Positions 19,704 to 26,324 of a stretch of 45,534 nt of DNA are shown one piece after another (position 1 is the first letter of the stretch; each line of letters begins with the position of its first letter). Below the pieces are notes generated by a model that searched no databases, was not told where the DNA came from, and worked only from the letters and a program-made list of their open reading frames with translations. This DNA comes from Actinomycetes bacterium (GTDB lineage Bacteria; Actinomycetota; Acidimicrobiia; Acidimicrobiales; RAAP-2), in contig JAJZEN010000104.1 in assembly GCA_021828545.1 (NCBI GenBank), forward strand, positions 313 to 45,846. The letters run 5' to 3'. The position numbers and the translations under genes were made by a program.

Positions 19704-20327
19704 ATGGCCGATGTCTTGACACCGATGAGACGAAAGATCCTGGAGTACATCGTCACGTGCCAACGAGAACGCAACTTCCCGCCGACTATCCGCGAAATCG
19801 CCGCGCACGTCGGATTAAACGCACCCGCGACGGTCGCCAACCACATCGAAGTACTGAAGAAGGCGGGATACATCGAGAAGAACCCCAAACAGCCCCGGAC
19901 CCTCACCGTGCGACTGGACGCGGAATCGGTACCCCCGGCCCCGGTCATTCGACAGATCCCCTTCGTCGGCGACGTCGCCGCCGGTACCGGGGTGTTGGCT
20001 ACGCAACAAGATCAGGAGGTCATGTCGTTGCCCGAGCAGTTCACGGGACGTGCTGAGTGCTTCGTCTTGCGAGTCCGTGGCGACTCCATGATTGACGCGG
20101 GGATACTTTCCGGGGACTTCATCGTGGTGCAGCGTCAAAATGTCGCCAATACCGGTGAAATCATCGTCGCGGGAATCCCCGGCGACGAGGCCACGGTGAA
20201 GCGGTATTTTCCCCAGGGCGCGCACGTGGTTCTCAAACCAGAAAACTCGACGATGGAGCCCATGGAGTTTGACACGAACGACGTCGTCATCTTCGGTCGG
20301 GTGATATCAGTTCTGCGTCGTTACTAG
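19704..20327 (+). CDS. lexA: SOS repressor LexA
   Basis: A 207-residue repressor and self-cleaving protease. Residues 5-68 are the winged-helix DNA-binding domain (PPTIREIAAHVGL). The C-terminal S24 domain has cleavage site Ala93-Gly94, catalytic Ser128 in GDSMIDAGI and Lys166 in EATVKRY. RecA filaments trigger cleavage and release SOS genes, here lexA itself and probably the LysM gene at 12 kb. I chose ATG 19704 because GGAGG stands six bases before it and the frame upstream would run through the promoter and LexA boxes. Its stop codon interlocks with that of the convergent dapE gene in a single CTAG. Confidence 0.96.
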   Translation: MADVLTPMRRKILEYIVTCQRERNFPPTIREIAAHVGLNAPATVANHIEVLKKAGYIEKNPKQPRTLTVRLDAESVPPAPVIRQIPFVGDVAAGTGVLATQQDQEVMSLPEQFTGRAECFVLRVRGDSMIDAGILSGDFIVVQRQNVANTGEIIVAGIPGDEATVKRYFPQGAHVVLKPENSTMEPMEFDTNDVVIFGRVISVLRRY

Positions 20328-21400
20328 TCGTCGCGCTCGCGCGGCGACGTCCCGCCCAACCAGTCACCAATGACCCGGACGAAATGCTTCACTTCCGACA
20401 AGGTCACACTCTCATCACTTCGATGCGCCAGCAACGGGTCGCCGGCACCGAAGTTGGTCGCGGGCACCGCCAGTTCGTGGAATGTCGCGACGTCCGTCCA
20501 ACCGACCTTCGCACGGGGCGTCGCCCCCGAGAGTTCCACGAGACGATGCAACTCCGCGTTGTCCAGGCTGGGCCGCGCCGAAGGAGCCCACTCGAGAATC
20601 TCGACCTCGTCACCCTCCGACACGCACTCGTGCAGATAATGTCGAAGCCATTCGACTGCCTCATCGCGCGTTCGATCAGGTGCAACACGATGGTTGAGCA
20701 CACATATGGCCGCGTCGGGCACCACGTTGTTCGCGACGCCACCTTCGACACGCACTGCTTGGAGTTGCTCAGTAAAGCTCACGCCATCGATCTCCACGGT
20801 GCGGGGCGCGTAGCGCGCAACGCGCGTCAGCAGATCCCCCATTCGATGGAGCGCGTTACGCCCCGTGAACGGACGCGACGTGTGGGCGCGACTCCCCCGC
20901 AATACCACCCTCACGTGGAGCGATCCCTGACATCCCGCTTCGACGCGACCCCCCGTTGGTTCGGCGAGCACCGCGGCGTCGGCGACCAGCAACTCGGGCC
21001 GAAGTTCGGCGATCTCCCGCAGTCCCGACTCAGAACGCGCGATCTCCTCTCGCGCGTAGAAAACCCACGTCACCTCGACCGGTCGCGGTGTGGCGTCGCG
21101 GGCGAGCTCCAACATGCCCGCCACGGAAGCCTTCATATCGCACGCGCCAAGTCCGCGCAACACGTCACCCTCAATTCGCGAGTTCCTCACGTCGCCGGGG
21201 ACCGTGTCGAGATGTCCCGCGACCATGAGTCGTTTGGGGTGCGGTCCGGTGGTTCGCGCGACGACGTTGTCGCCGATACGTTCCACGTCGAGCGCCGGAT
21301 TCGCCACGAGTTCGTCGTAAACCCGCGCGGCCAGCATCGCTTCATTTCCGCTCACCGAATCAACGCGAACGAGCTCAAGGACGTCATCGAGGTTGATCAC
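20324..21400 (-). CDS. dapE: Succinyl-diaminopimelate desuccinylase DapE
   Basis: A 358-residue M20 zinc peptidase-fold enzyme that removes succinate from N-succinyl-LL-diaminopimelate. Visible motifs are AGHLDTVPGD (zinc His and Asp), GLGACDMKAS (bridging Asp), FYAREEI (catalytic and zinc Glu), LAEPTGG and a C-terminal AHRSDE His. It resembles the Gram-positive DapE group rather than the E. coli form. GTG 21400 overlaps the dapD stop by four bases. It is the last gene of the leftward dap run and converges on lexA with shared stop-codon bases. Confidence 0.92.
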   Translation of the reverse strand: MINLDDVLELVRVDSVSGNEAMLAARVYDELVANPALDVERIGDNVVARTTGPHPKRLMVAGHLDTVPGDVRNSRIEGDVLRGLGACDMKASVAGMLELARDATPRPVEVTWVFYAREEIARSESGLREIAELRPELLVADAAVLAEPTGGRVEAGCQGSLHVRVVLRGSRAHTSRPFTGRNALHRMGDLLTRVARYAPRTVEIDGVSFTEQLQAVRVEGGVANNVVPDAAICVLNHRVAPDRTRDEAVEWLRHYLHECVSEGDEVEILEWAPSARPSLDNAELHRLVELSGATPRAKVGWTDVATFHELAVPATNFGAGDPLLAHRSDESVTLSEVKHFVRVIGDWLGGTSPRERDD

Positions 21401-22221
21401 ATCGCTACGCCGTTCTCTCGCAGGACTTCGTTGAGCGCCACTTTGGAGTGTCGTTCGTTCTCGTCGAGACGCTTAATAATCAAGACGCAGGGTAGAAAAA
21501 ACTCCCCACCTGGATACTCCCGACGTCGTTGGGCCGACACCGCGACGCAGTAATCCGGCACGTAGCCCCTCGATACCTCGGCGCCCGATTGGGCGTCGAT
21601 GACCGGAATCGAAGGATTGAGGATAGTCCCGGCGCCCAGCACCGACCCCTTGCCCACCCTCGCCCCCTCGACGACCATGCAGCGGCTACCGATGAAGGCT
21701 CCGTCTTCGATCACGACCGGAACGGCGTTGGCAGGCTCGAGAACCCCGCCGATGCCGACGCCGCCCGCGAGGTGCACGTTCGCGCCGATCTGTGCACAGC
21801 TCCCCACCGTGGCCCAGGTATCCACCATTGTGCCCGGCCCCACCCACGCACCAATGTTCACGTAGCTCGGCATCATAATGACGCCAGGGCTCAAGTAACT
21901 ACCGCGGCGGGCCGAGGCGCCGGGCACAACGCGCACACCGTGGGCGGCATAATTTGATTTGAGATCGAGTTTGTCATGAAATTCAAAGGGCCCGGACTCG
22001 GTCGTCGTCATGGCGCGCAAACGAAACAAGAGCAAAATGGCCTGCTTGATCCAGTCGTGAACGACCACGCCGTTGTCCACATTGATCTCGGCGACGCGCA
22101 ACTGGCCCTCGTCCAACTTTGTGATGACCAGTTCGACGTCGCGACGCGCCTCGACATTCGTCGGCGTCATCTCCCCGATCAGGTCGTACCAGCGTCGAAT
22201 TCTTGTCTCGAGGTCACTCAT
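21397..22221 (-). CDS. dapD: Tetrahydrodipicolinate N-succinyltransferase DapD
   Basis: A 274-residue left-handed beta-helix acyltransferase that uses succinyl-CoA. The stretches MPSYVNIGAWVGPGTMVDTW and VGSCAQIGANVHLAGGVGIG closely match E. coli DapD, and the length is also that of the E. coli enzyme. Well-known actinobacterial DapD proteins (Mycobacterium, Corynebacterium) are longer and distinct, so this is the proteobacterial-type family. An N-terminal helical domain of about 100 residues precedes the helix repeats. ATG 22221 is 23 bases after dapC; the end overlaps dapE by four bases. Confidence 0.95.
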   Translation of the reverse strand: MSDLETRIRRWYDLIGEMTPTNVEARRDVELVITKLDEGQLRVAEINVDNGVVVHDWIKQAILLLFRLRAMTTTESGPFEFHDKLDLKSNYAAHGVRVVPGASARRGSYLSPGVIMMPSYVNIGAWVGPGTMVDTWATVGSCAQIGANVHLAGGVGIGGVLEPANAVPVVIEDGAFIGSRCMVVEGARVGKGSVLGAGTILNPSIPVIDAQSGAEVSRGYVPDYCVAVSAQRRREYPGGEFFLPCVLIIKRLDENERHSKVALNEVLRENGVAM

Positions 22222-22244: not shown

Positions 22245-23351
22245 CTAGATCGCTTCTCGAAGTCGCGAGACGGCCAATTCCAGTCGTTCGTCGGGCTGCA
22301 CCATCGCGATTCGAACGAATCCTGCGCCCGCGGGGCCGTAAAGATCACCCGGGCTCACGATGAGCCCCGACGCCGAAGCGAGCCACGCGGCTAACTCCCA
22401 TCCATCCATTCCGTCACGTGAACACCATAGGTAAAATGCTCCTTCAGGTCCGGGGCAGTCCAGGCCCGCCGCGCGCAGGGCGTCGCCGACGAGACTGAGC
22501 CGACGACGGTACGTGTTGCGCTGGACCTCGACGTGCGCATCGTCGCCGTACGCGAGGGCCACGGCCGATTGCACGGGCGCGGGCACCATCAAGCCCGCGT
22601 GTTGACGAATGAGGCGCAAGTACGCCACCAGCTCTGGGTCACCCGCGTAGAAGCCCGCCCGGACGCCCGCCAGATTTGAGCGTTTGGAGATTGAGTGCAG
22701 AACGATCACGTTGTCGACGCCGTGGGTCAACATCGTTCGGGGTCGGTCGCTCCAAGTGAACTCGGCGTAACACTCATCACTTGCGACCAGCACGTCGTGT
22801 TCACGCCCCCAGTCGGCGGCTCGACCGAGATCGTCCAAATGTCCCGTCGGATTGGAGGGGGAATTTGACCATAGGACGAGCGCGCGGCCCACGTCGCCGG
22901 GATCGAGGGAGTCCAAGTCGAGGACTCCGTCGACCAGGGGGACCTCGACCGCGCGCAATCCCGCCAGCGTGGCGCCCATTGCGTACGTGGGGTAGGAAAT
23001 AGCGGGGTACAAGACGGTGTCGCGCTCGGGCCGGCGCAGGTGCAGGTACGTCGCCAGAGACGCGACGAACTCCTTCGTACCGATGCACGCCGCCACTTGG
23101 GCCTCGGGAACTTCGACGTCGAAGCGGCGAGCCAGCCAGCGCGCGGCGCCCTCACGGAACTGTCGCGTTCCCGCCGAGGGCGGATACCCGCGCGCACCCG
23201 TAGCACGCGCCAGTTCGGCGACGACGAAGTCCGGTGGCGCGTCGACCGGCGTTCCGATGGAGCAATCGACTGCTCCGCCGTCGTGCTGGGCGGCCGCGAC
23301 TTTGAGTCCCTCGAGACGCTCGTAGGGGTAGGGCGGCGGCGTGAAACTCAC
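22245..23351 (-). CDS. dapC: Succinyl-diaminopimelate aminotransferase DapC
   Basis: A 368-residue PLP-dependent class I aminotransferase. The PLP lysine is in SISKRSNLAG, the Asn of the PLP site is in NSPSNPTG, and the phosphate-binding Arg is in the same SKRSN region. The next genes are dapD and dapE, which fixes the likely substrate as N-succinyl-2-amino-6-ketopimelate. I chose GTG 23351 because GGAGGT lies seven bases upstream and because it gives a GTGA overlap with hflX; another GTG five codons earlier has no such signal. Confidence 0.88.
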   Translation of the reverse strand: MSFTPPPYPYERLEGLKVAAAQHDGGAVDCSIGTPVDAPPDFVVAELARATGARGYPPSAGTRQFREGAARWLARRFDVEVPEAQVAACIGTKEFVASLATYLHLRRPERDTVLYPAISYPTYAMGATLAGLRAVEVPLVDGVLDLDSLDPGDVGRALVLWSNSPSNPTGHLDDLGRAADWGREHDVLVASDECYAEFTWSDRPRTMLTHGVDNVIVLHSISKRSNLAGVRAGFYAGDPELVAYLRLIRQHAGLMVPAPVQSAVALAYGDDAHVEVQRNTYRRRLSLVGDALRAAGLDCPGPEGAFYLWCSRDGMDGWELAAWLASASGLIVSPGDLYGPAGAGFVRIAMVQPDERLELAVSRLREAI

Positions 23352-24628
23352 GCGATGTACCTCCACTGCGCGAATCGCGCGACGCCCACGTCGTCAAGAA
23401 CCACCCGAACGGTCACGTACTCATCATTCACCGACGTCGCCACGACGTCACCCTCGCGATGGGCCGCGGCCACGAGATCTCCTCGGTCAATAGGAAGTCG
23501 AAGCGTCATCACCCGGTCCTTCGTGCGCAGCCGATCACCCACGGTGCCAATCACGTCGTCCAAATTATCTTGGGTCAGTGCCGAGACCCACACGCTGCCT
23601 TCGTAGACCTTGGCCAGATCACGCGAGCGTGAGCCGGGAACGTCAGCCTTGTTGAAGACGAGCAACTCAGGAACGTGGTCGGCGTGAATTTCACGAAGCA
23701 CATCGCGCACCGCCGCGATCTGCGACTCGGCGTCGTCACTAGCGCCGTCGACGACGTGGACCAGAAGGTCGGCGAGCTGGACCGACTTGAGCGTGCTCAT
23801 GAACGCCTCGACCAGTTCGTGGGGCAGATTCGATATGAACCCCACGGTGTCAGTGACCAGGATGGTCTCACCACCGGGCAATTGACGTTGACGCGTACGC
23901 GGGTCCAGCGTGACGAAGAGTCGGTTCTCCGCCGCCACGCCGGCGTCGGTGAGGGCGTTGAGCAGCGAGGACTTGCCCGCGTTGGTGTAGCCCACCAACG
24001 TCACTTCTCGGTGGCGCCCCCGGTCGCGTCCTTGGCGCTGCACCTCGCGCGTCCGGTCGATCTGCTTGAGTTCTTCACGAATGCGATGAATCCGGTGGAC
24101 GAGACGGCGTCGATCCACCTCGAGCTGGGTTTCACCGGGTCCGCGCGTGCCGATGCCCCCGGCCTGCTGGGACAGAGAACCGCCGGCCCGTCGAAGGCGA
24201 GGTAGGCGATACTGCAGTAACGCCAACTCCACTTGGGCTTTGCCTTCGGGAGTGCGTGCGTTCTGCGCGAAGATATCCAAAATCACCGCGGTTCGATCAA
24301 TCGCCGTGCGTCCGAGGATCTTCTCGAGGTTCCGTTGTTGGGCCGGTGAGAGGTTCTGTTCGAACACCACGGTGTCCGAGTCCATCGCGAGGCATATCTC
24401 ACGGAGTTCAATGACCTTACCCGAGCCCAGAAAAGTCGCCGGATCCGGAGCATCCCGGCGCTGCACCACGCGCGCCACCACGTCGGCGCCGGCGGTGTCG
24501 ACGAGCAGGGCCAACTCATCGAGCTGATGATCAAGCTCCTCGACGGTCACACCGGGGAACTGGACGCCCACCAACACGATCTTTTCGCGAAACGAGCGGT
24601 CGATCAGCGTGGTGGGGACGTACGTCAC
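23348..24628 (-). CDS. hflX: Ribosome-associated GTPase HflX
   Basis: A GTPase of about 426 residues. The N-terminal HflX domain contains GSGKVIEL and the linker GGIGTRGPGETQLEVDRR; the G domain has G1 GYTNAGKSS, G3 DTVGF and G4 NKAD. HflX splits 70S ribosomes under stress. I chose GTG 24628 since it overlaps the dapF stop by four bases, as with its neighbours; GTG 24640 would add four residues but has no space for a ribosome binding site. It sits inside a diaminopimelate gene run, between dapF and dapC, which may simply reflect a shared operon. Confidence 0.93.
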   Translation of the reverse strand: MTYVPTTLIDRSFREKIVLVGVQFPGVTVEELDHQLDELALLVDTAGADVVARVVQRRDAPDPATFLGSGKVIELREICLAMDSDTVVFEQNLSPAQQRNLEKILGRTAIDRTAVILDIFAQNARTPEGKAQVELALLQYRLPRLRRAGGSLSQQAGGIGTRGPGETQLEVDRRRLVHRIHRIREELKQIDRTREVQRQGRDRGRHREVTLVGYTNAGKSSLLNALTDAGVAAENRLFVTLDPRTRQRQLPGGETILVTDTVGFISNLPHELVEAFMSTLKSVQLADLLVHVVDGASDDAESQIAAVRDVLREIHADHVPELLVFNKADVPGSRSRDLAKVYEGSVWVSALTQDNLDDVIGTVGDRLRTKDRVMTLRLPIDRGDLVAAAHREGDVVATSVNDEYVTVRVVLDDVGVARFAQWRYIA

Positions 24629-25392
24629 CCCCCGAGCCACTCCACGTTCGCCACGAACTTCACGGGACCCTCGAGTCGGGCACTGCCCTCGCCCAAGGTG
24701 ACGCGCAGCGAACCACCAGGGTTATCGACCGTCACGTCCGATCCGGTCAGACCACGTTGGTGACACACCGCCGCGGTCGCCACCGAGCCGGTCCCGCACG
24801 CCAACGTCCAGCCAACGCCCCGCTCGATGACCCGAATCACCACGTGCGCCTCATCAATGATCTCGACGAATTCAACGTTCGCGCCCCCGAGTTGGAAAGC
24901 AAGCTTCGCGGCCATCTCCTCACGATTGATATCGTCCCAGTCGGGATTGTTGACCACCACCACGTGAGGATTGCCCACGTGCGCCACGCCCAACGCCCCC
25001 TCGAGGGTGCGACCCAGGGTGACGGGACCCATATCGACACTACCCACTCCACAATCCTCGCGCAGGTCCAGCGTGACGAGTCGAACACCAGCCAGGGTGT
25101 TCACACGCATCTCACGGTCACTTCGTCCCGTTGCGCGACGCACCGCGGCGACGAGGCAGCGAATCCCATTGCCGGACATTTCAGCGATGGTTCCGTCCGC
25201 GTTGTAGAGCGTCATCGAGATCGTCGGCGCCACGGTCGCCACCAACAATCCATCCGCGCCCACCCCCAAGTGACGGTCGCACGCGGCGCGCGCGCGATGC
25301 GCGTTCCACCACGGATCGGCACCCTGCTCGACGACGTCGACCAGGAAGTCGTTTCCCGCGCCCTGCCACTTTTGTAATGAACGAAGTGCCAT
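24625..25392 (-). CDS. dapF: Diaminopimelate epimerase DapF, with Ser at the first catalytic Cys position
   Basis: A 255-residue protein of the DapF fold that should interconvert LL- and meso-diaminopimelate. The N-terminal KWQGAGNDFL and the second active site LACGTGS (Cys199) are normal. The first active site, usually N-x-D-G-S-x4-C-G-N-G, reads NADGTIAEMSGNG, so Ser73 replaces the catalytic Cys (codon TCC at 25174-25176, one base from TGC). The adjacent Cys79 (GIRC) is a conserved but non-catalytic position in relatives. Length and all other motifs are normal and no other dapF is in the window. It lies five bases after miaA and overlaps hflX by four. Confidence 0.9.
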   Translation of the reverse strand: MALRSLQKWQGAGNDFLVDVVEQGADPWWNAHRARAACDRHLGVGADGLLVATVAPTISMTLYNADGTIAEMSGNGIRCLVAAVRRATGRSDREMRVNTLAGVRLVTLDLREDCGVGSVDMGPVTLGRTLEGALGVAHVGNPHVVVVNNPDWDDINREEMAAKLAFQLGGANVEFVEIIDEAHVVIRVIERGVGWTLACGTGSVATAAVCHQRGLTGSDVTVDNPGGSLRVTLGEGSARLEGPVKFVANVEWLGG

Positions 25393-25397
25393 AGTCT

Positions 25398-26324
25398 TTA
25401 GTCTCGCACGAACCCATCGGGACTTCCCAGAACCTCCTCGAGTCGTTTCGCCGCGTCGTAGGGGTCGTCAAACCACTCCACGCGCGGATCACGCTGGAAC
25501 CAAGAACGCTGGCGCCGAGCGAGACGACGACTCTGTTGGATCGCGTCTTCTACGCAACGATCCAGGTCGGCACCCTCGTCCAAGTGACGAAGCAATTCTC
25601 GATATCCCACGGCCTGACGGGCCGTGCGACTCATCCCGTGTTCCCTCAGGTGTGCGACCTCCTCTACTAGTCCTCGTTCAATCCAAGCCTCGAAACGTCT
25701 CCGAATTCGCACATCTAAAACATCAAATTCACAATTAAGTCCAACTTGCACGACTCTCGACGGTCCATACTGGCGAAGACCCGCCCCGAAGGACGAAAAC
25801 GGCCGGCCGCTGCCCAGCGTGACCTCGAGCGCGCGTATGACGCGGCGCAGGTTGGTGGGCTCAATTTTCTCCGCCGCCGCCGAATCGAGAAGTCGCAACT
25901 GCTCGTAGAGTCCGACGCCGTCGTCCGCGCGGGCGTCGAGCTCGGCGCGAACCTCCGGAAATCTTCCGGGGATGTCAAGATCGTCCAACACCGCCCGTCC
26001 GTAGAGGCCGGTCCCCCCGACGTAGAGTATCGATCCACCCCGTGCCCATACCTCGCTCGCGGCGGCTCGCGCGGCACCTTGGAACTCGCTCACCGTGTAT
26101 TCGTCCGAGGGGTCCACGAGGTCAAGTAGGTGGTAGTTGACCTCACGGCGTTCGCTCAGCGTCGCCTTCGCCGTCCCGATATCCATTCCGCGATAGACGC
26201 ACATCGAATCGACGCTGAGGATTTCCACGTCACCGTTGGCGAGCGCGAGCTCGTGGGCCAACGCAGATTTGCCTGACGCGGTCGCGCCGACCAGGGCGAC
26301 CGCCATTCCACCGTGGTTCCTCAC
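25398..26324 (-). CDS. miaA: tRNA dimethylallyltransferase MiaA
   Basis: A 308-residue enzyme that adds a dimethylallyl group to A37 of tRNAs reading UNN codons. The P-loop is GATASGKS (residues 13-20), the substrate Asp lies in VDSMCVYRGMDIGTAK, and the later RRVIRALEV and RQAVGYRE motifs are typical. GTG 26324 overlaps the miaB stop by four bases (GTGA), like other pairs here; ATG 26306 would remove six residues and is possible. The preceding miaB acts on the product, so both A37 steps are encoded together. Confidence 0.93.
   Translation of the reverse strand: MRNHGGMAVALVGATASGKSALAHELALANGDVEILSVDSMCVYRGMDIGTAKATLSERREVNYHLLDLVDPSDEYTVSEFQGAARAAASEVWARGGSILYVGGTGLYGRAVLDDLDIPGRFPEVRAELDARADDGVGLYEQLRLLDSAAAEKIEPTNLRRVIRALEVTLGSGRPFSSFGAGLRQYGPSRVVQVGLNCEFDVLDVRIRRRFEAWIERGLVEEVAHLREHGMSRTARQAVGYRELLRHLDEGADLDRCVEDAIQQSRRLARRQRSWFQRDPRVEWFDDPYDAAKRLEEVLGSPDGFVRD

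Follow-up and report, generated by a model that had tools for sequence, protein, structure and literature searches.

A predicted diaminopimelate epimerase with serine at the first catalytic cysteine position in Acidimicrobiales

The window analysed here, a stretch of DNA of 45,534 nucleotides from a member of the Acidimicrobiales, carries on its minus strand a dapF gene for diaminopimelate (DAP) epimerase, placed between miaA and a run formed by hflX and three genes of the DAP pathway (Table 1); miaB also lies within the window. The dapF open reading frame has an ATG start and a TGA stop, and its product scores 170.2 bits against the TIGR00652 DapF profile (cut-off 114.65) and 127.6 bits against PF01678 (cut-off 34.7). 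A wrong reading frame is ruled out by the open frame and the full-length profile match. The sequence-only reading had described Ser73, encoded by TCC, at the position of the first catalytic cysteine with Cys199 retained, and when the codons were read again this description proved exact; the motif at position 73 is NADGTIAEMSGNGIRC, the C-terminal motif is ERGVGWTLACGTGS, and the second catalytic Cys is present in A-C-G-T-G. The PROSITE two-thiol signature PDOC01029, which has Cys in C-G-N-G (as quoted in PMC8225329; papers are cited here by PMC number), does not match this protein, in which Ser73 stands instead. The window protein is a member of the DapF sequence family and lies outside PROSITE's canonical two-thiol class.

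Table 1. Features of the window, and loci with other Ser-containing DapF types
Feature	Position or loci	Strand	Evidence
dapE, succinyl-diaminopimelate desuccinylase	20324..21400	minus	TIGR01900 380.6 bits, cut-off 304.2
dapD, tetrahydrodipicolinate N-succinyltransferase	21397..22221	minus	NF008808 318.8 bits, cut-off 204
dapC-like succinyldiaminopimelate transaminase	22245..23366	minus	TIGR03539 343.7 bits, just below cut-off 355.65
hflX GTPase; listed ORF overlaps the end of dapF	23348..24640	minus	TIGR03156 427.4 bits, cut-off 216.75
dapF, Ser73/Cys199-type diaminopimelate epimerase (predicted), 255 aa	24625..25392	minus	ORF, profile scores, AlphaFold model
Codon TGC for Cys199, second catalytic Cys, retained	24796..24798	minus	Codon read
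Codon TCC for Ser73, position of first catalytic Cys	25174..25176	minus	Codon read, alignments
miaA, directly upstream of dapF	25398..26324	minus	TIGR00174 225.4 bits, cut-off 148.65
Acidobacteriota Ser/Ser loci	L224–L251 in part, L282–L301, L219–L221, L333–L402 in part		
Cys/Ser mirror-image loci, motifs such as ASGSG or ASGTG	L252–L281 (family f45); L156, L158, L312, L317 (family f32)		

We denote each DapF by its residues at positions 73 and 199, the window protein being Ser/Cys. Some of our alignments hold the same gene more than once, and distinct counts are used where stated. The PROSITE signature is matched by none of 135 Ser/Cys rows, none of 95 Ser/Ser rows, not by the single Thr/Cys row, by 93 of 118 Cys/Cys rows and by all 39 Cys/Ser rows, counts that include duplicates. 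For annotation, this means that signatures demanding Cys miss Ser-type DapFs.

The window DapF has a place in a DAP pathway, with dapE, dapD and the dapC-like gene beside it (the dapD product stays below the TIGR00965 cut-off, 242.9 against 375.4 bits) and with lysA (401.1 bits) and murE (456.6 bits, with a DNPR motif) in the same genome. We take this DNPR motif to be typical of MurE enzymes that add meso-DAP. Of 20 genomes whose DapF has a Ser at either position, 73 or 199, the window's own among them, 17 have a LysA match above cut-off; of the other three, G009 (a close relative) and G118 gave no LysA match, and that of G050 is below cut-off. A bypass through DAP dehydrogenase was also considered and rejected. 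No match above cut-off occurs in 20 Ser-type genomes (10 Ser/Cys, 5 Cys/Ser, 5 Ser/Ser) or in 30 further Acidobacteriota genomes (27 Ser/Ser, 3 Cys/Ser), the weak partial matches in 6 of the 20 and 6 of the 30 all falling below it; each of the two profile searches also covered 14 control genomes, of which 2 passed. On this evidence, these genomes have no recognised way to turn LL-DAP into meso-DAP other than their Ser-type DapF. Of published work in this class, whole-cell hydrolysate of Actinospongicola halichondriae (Iamiaceae, Acidimicrobiia) is reported to contain meso-DAP, which is the Iamiaceae pattern with one exception, the table and text of that source disagreeing on which species this is (PMC12263773). 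The record titled Aquihabitans sp. (L048), a genus placed in Iamiaceae by the same paper, has a Ser/Cys DapF, and so does genome G172 (L199). For Ilumatobacter coccineum the authors describe an LL-DAP aminotransferase pathway, which likewise ends at LL-DAP (PMC3910706).

The search of the window's own assembly for a second dapF, which the sequence-only reading had proposed, turned up none: the PF01678 matches are to this dapF alone, as two halves of one gene, and because the assembly is only 91% complete a second enzyme could be missing from view. Relative G060 has two Ser/Cys dapF copies on two contigs. A further Ser-type dapF, this one broken, lies on a separate contig of a genus genome (L178, G014:C116) and is either contamination or a decayed copy.

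Profile searches gave a DapF match in 59 of 61 genomes (the window's own, 36 of its genus and 24 of its order), and the two without a match are among the 37 of the genus, own genome included (G012 and G018). When aligned to its closest relatives, the window protein is not exceptional: Ser73 with Cys199 is found in all 30 genus genomes read (its own and 29 others, from 35 with a match), in all 3 from elsewhere in the family, and in every one of the 28 DapF genes read in the order outside that family, which span 24 family codes. The idea that the lineage uses a Ser variant is supported by everything read in genus, family and order. An error of sequencing or assembly, TCC for TGC, had been the competing suggestion, and the difference is indeed a single base in a draft assembly; it is refuted by the independent genomes with Ser, the codon being TCC in the window and AGC in another genome of the order, G139 (L330), and we give it practically no credence. 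Counted over 304 distinct sequences, whatever their type, Ser at position 73 is encoded by AGC (71), TCG (53), TCC (26), AGT (15), TCA (3) and TCT (3). What had been framed as one odd protein is shared across the clade, and it belongs to a set of several Cys-to-Ser swaps that affect the first and the second catalytic position alike.

Among 66 named public records, Ser/Cys is the type of all 27 titled Acidimicrobiia, of all 8 titled Actinomycetes and of 10 from Actinomycetota without a class (one more being incomplete); those titled Acidobacteriota are 3 Ser/Ser and 2 Ser/Cys, and all 15 from Bacillota, Planctomycetota and Alphaproteobacteria are Cys/Cys. Two records titled Acidobacteria bacterium (L033 and L035) have a DapF 91% identical to the window's, and their titles are probably wrong. 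Elsewhere in the class the types are mixed, with 21 Ser/Cys, 33 Cys/Cys, 4 Cys/Ser and 1 Thr/Cys among 59 sequences. The last of these, L148 (family f97), is a lone case of a DapF that pairs Thr at the first catalytic position with Cys at the second. The class search found a DapF match in 138 of 139 genomes, and where more than one was listed (G364, G386 and G449) they are pieces of one gene.

All groups, those further afield included, were surveyed by profile, and part of the matches was then read, namely the best-scoring loci and chosen stretches. The 376 distinct DapF sequences or fragments read in total comprise 122 Cys/Cys, 121 Ser/Cys, 90 Ser/Ser, 36 Cys/Ser, 1 Thr/Cys and 6 incomplete ones. 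Ser/Ser is the commonest type in Acidobacteriota (84 of 124 distinct DapFs read, with 37 Cys/Cys and 3 Cys/Ser); the phylum-wide search alone gave 41 Ser/Ser, 26 Cys/Cys and 3 Cys/Ser at 70 loci read of 112 genomes with a match, about half of the full Acidobacteriota set being from the class of genome G462. The mirror image of the window's arrangement, Cys/Ser, was met in family f45 of the window's own phylum, in which 30 of 39 genomes have a match, 29 sequences are Cys/Ser and one genome has fragments only; one of these dapF genes adjoins a gene that resembles dapA by eye. Family f32 has 4 Cys/Ser and 4 Cys/Cys DapFs.

Two minor groups of sequences came up in the same survey. Families f49 and f62 have a second dapF-like gene (L302–L306 and L217) whose product is Ser/Ser, has an NPDAS motif and mostly has Thr in place of Asn141; in f49 genomes G246 and G321 this paralogue is beside a Cys/Cys DapF. 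Seven Acidobacteriota genomes (G601, G613, G625, G636, G646, G674 and G682) have a weak DapF-like match, mainly to profile positions from 152 on and in some of them beside a full DapF, which is perhaps another PLP-independent epimerase.

In a tree of 271 sequences (those left of 386 after removal of near-duplicates, with residues 73 and 199 masked) there are at least 10 type changes, 7 at each position, although several branches, deep ones too, are weakly supported here and in the smaller tree below, and such counts give no direction. One of the 7 changes at position 73 is the Ser/Thr change of L148, so that Cys/Ser changes number at least 6 at 73 and 7 at 199. The long-branch row L350 and the f49/f62 paralogue each supply one change at each position; when both are left out, position 73 retains 4 Cys/Ser changes and position 199 retains 5. 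A smaller tree, of 254 among 313 usable sequences, has 6 changes at 73 and 4 at 199. Cys/Cys row L207, whose branch is very long, falls in or beside the Ser/Cys clade, and its placement there may be wrong. Cys/Cys, Cys/Ser and Ser/Ser DapFs stand side by side in one Acidobacteriota clade, which suggests a stepwise path. As judged from these alignments and trees, Cys-to-Ser swaps recur in DapF and reach a form without a catalytic Cys.

We take N14, N64, N75, N141, N172, E190 and R191 to be the positions that contact DAP. All are invariant in 96 Ser/Cys sequences except N141, which is present in 98%. When four type groups are compared (these 96, 39 Ser/Ser from the class of G462, 24 Cys/Ser of f45 and 82 Cys/Cys), N141 is conserved at 93–100% and the others at 96–100%, and it is the catalytic positions that separate the types. 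The window DapF has the Asn, Glu and Arg equivalents of the DAP-contact residues, a role drawn in part from PMC5296763. In a wider set N141 is present in 70% of Cys/Cys, 94% of Acidobacteriota Ser/Ser and 99% of Ser/Cys sequences. The Cys/Cys DapFs of Acidobacteriota have Val for Asn141 in 89% and are otherwise less canonical than the Ser/Ser ones. Many columns differ between Ser/Ser and Cys/Cys DapFs within Acidobacteriota, and as the two are distant clades no column can be named as a compensation.

Median dN/dS is 0.080 for Ser/Cys (135 pairs), 0.154 for Ser/Ser (13), 0.169 for Cys/Ser (16) and 0.171 for Cys/Cys (31), from pairs of 80–97% identity and dS below 2 that are not independent, some genes being in two record copies. 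By these ratios all four DapF types are under purifying selection. The AlphaFold model of the window DapF (pLDDT 94.3) has Ser73 and Cys199 directly before helices 74–88 and 200–212, and a model of a Ser/Ser protein (L087; pLDDT 95.1) has Ser72 and Ser207 before helices 73–86 and 208–221. The window model has the DapF fold, matching the solved DapFs among the listed structures with Z of 28.1–31.4 and rmsd of 2.2–2.8 (Z 24.6 and rmsd 3.7 for one RppH complex of DapF); its best matches tie between O-ureidoserine racemase (Z 31.5) and C. glutamicum DapF (31.4). The Ser/Ser model is best matched by Anabaena DapF (Z 35.7, rmsd 1.9, 256 aligned).

Compared with canonical DapF (TIGR00652; the enzymes of H. 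influenzae, C. glutamicum, Anabaena and Arabidopsis), the window enzyme has the profile, fold, pocket, pathway context and second Cys in common, and differs in its Ser for the first catalytic Cys and its failure to match the PROSITE signature. The same replacement is found in the C73S form of H. influenzae DapF (PDB 2q9h; Z 28.8, rmsd 2.7 and 246 aligned to the window model), but that change was engineered in a Cys/Cys enzyme, and such changes are said to hinder catalysis (PMC12039745). Cys-to-Ser mutants of PddB have less than 0.1% activity, with the like reported for M. tuberculosis DapF (PMC8225329), and C. glutamicum DapF C83A and C221A are almost inactive (PMC5296763). Since such laboratory mutants are nearly dead, one would not expect Ser types in nature, least of all the thiol-free Ser/Ser ones, and the natural Ser enzymes must have compensating features or be slow. 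Among the open-access papers listed by the literature searches, none names a natural Ser-type DapF in its title or in the start of its abstract.

Natural pairs of hydroxyl and thiol are on record in other families. A 4-hydroxyproline 2-epimerase of the proline racemase superfamily with a Ser93/Cys pair is described as active, its Ser being assigned to the trans-to-cis (L-to-D) direction; text and legend of that source differ on the accession of the enzyme and on whether the Cys is 255 or 236 (PMC4113996). It is of the same fold class as the window DapF and likewise has Ser first and Cys second, but it has another substrate and belongs to another family, and the likeness rests on the Ser/Cys pair; PDB entry 4lb0, which by its title we take to be this epimerase, is 15% identical to the window DapF in structure alignment. 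An aspartate/glutamate racemase with Thr for one Cys (reviewed in PMC8142540) is a cofactor-free racemase with a natural hydroxyl/thiol pair, as is present in Ser/Cys DapF, yet it too is of another family and is described as irreversible in one direction.

The near-inactive mutants lend themselves to two readings other than an ordinary enzyme. In one of these the Ser-type DapF is inactive or otherwise employed and an unrecognised enzyme makes meso-DAP. Genome G247 of the same order, 97% complete and with no DapF match at all, would fit this, and so would the f49/f62 paralogue, which lacks Asn141 in most of its 6 copies and implies that Ser forms can leave the DapF role. Set against it are the position of the window dapF as the sole DapF found in its genome, among other dap genes, the 50 genomes tried that have no DAP dehydrogenase above cut-off, and pocket residues and purifying selection as in Cys/Cys DapFs, and we think it quite improbable. 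The suggestion made from the sequence alone that the protein has a changed role finds no support either: context, pocket, selection and the lack of a substitute enzyme among those searched favour ordinary DapF duty.

The other reading is that of a tolerated slow enzyme, in which Ser lowers the rate and is kept by drift because the cell needs little lysine and DAP. Slow growth would be plausible in these lineages, many of which are uncultured. This reading likewise draws on the mutants (PMC8225329), but it is at odds with a Ser that is stable across an order, that was reached more than once at both positions and that is accompanied by continued purifying selection; it seems unlikely to us, though it deserves some weight. 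The reading we prefer, and consider likely, is that the window DapF functions as a diaminopimelate epimerase and represents a natural Ser/Cys type, one present in everything read from Acidimicrobiales. Its catalytic activity and the roles of Ser73 and Cys199 are predicted from sequence, very probably correctly.

In a working enzyme of this kind, dapD, the dapC-like gene and dapE would make LL-DAP, and DapF would invert one of its alpha-carbons, supplying LysA and MurE with meso-DAP. In the closed site the two catalytic residues would each sit at the N-terminus of a central helix, Ser73 on one as the substitute for the first catalytic Cys and Cys199 on the other in its usual role. In Anabaena DapF the inhibitor L,L-aziDAP alkylates the first Cys and D,L-aziDAP the second (PMC12039745). 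By analogy with these aziridine inhibitors, Ser73 would be the acid/base of the L face, taking the proton from LL-DAP while Cys199 donates one, with the roles reversed in the back reaction. The Ser hydroxyl might be activated by the helix dipole, by backbone amides and by desolvation on closure. Anabaena DapF has no basic residue within 4 Å of either catalytic sulphur (PMC12039745), so there is nothing obvious to activate a Ser.

That last observation also counts against a relay in which Ser73 is not the base and the proton passes via His143, Glu190 or water, with Ser as a bridge or spacer. Such a relay is compatible with a Glu190 that is invariant in all types and a His143 present in 100% of Ser/Cys sequences; of 84 Acidobacteriota Ser/Ser sequences, however, only 52% have His at position 143 and 36% have Gln. 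Position 73 moreover is only ever Cys, Ser, Thr or missing in the 376 distinct sequences or fragments (Thr in L148 and in one misaligned fragment of L281), from which a hydroxyl or thiol is apparently needed there. We regard the relay as rather improbable.

It is an enduring problem how a weak base, unaided by a cofactor, can remove an alpha-proton with a pKa of about 29, and the usual explanation invokes an unusual thiol-thiolate pair (PMC12039745). Natural Ser in DapF, and two Ser in many Acidobacteria, call the textbook requirement for two thiols into question. The loss of both catalytic thiols in the Ser/Ser DapFs, outside the window, is the more interesting case. The chances seem to us about even that DAP can be epimerised free of cofactor and without a thiol-thiolate pair, that Cys and Ser have been exchanged several times at either position, and that most of the Acidobacteriota DapFs read are thiol-free alpha-carbon epimerases whose hydroxyls are activated by the closed pocket. 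Because nature offers the series Cys/Cys, Ser/Cys, Cys/Ser and Ser/Ser in a substrate pocket that is otherwise largely the same, whether thiols are needed can be tested directly in wild-type proteins. Inhibitors that alkylate the catalytic Cys may spare Ser-type DapFs.

In C. glutamicum DapF a disulfide between the two catalytic Cys is the off state, and activity is lost with H2O2 (PMC5296763). Ser at either position removes an inhibitory disulfide of this type, so selection for oxidation resistance is a possible reason for Ser. Mean non-catalytic Cys per protein is 3.61 in Ser/Cys, 4.94 in Ser/Ser, 4.26 in Cys/Ser and 4.09 in Cys/Cys rows, and as this content is not lower in the Ser types taken together, Cys is not avoided in general in them.
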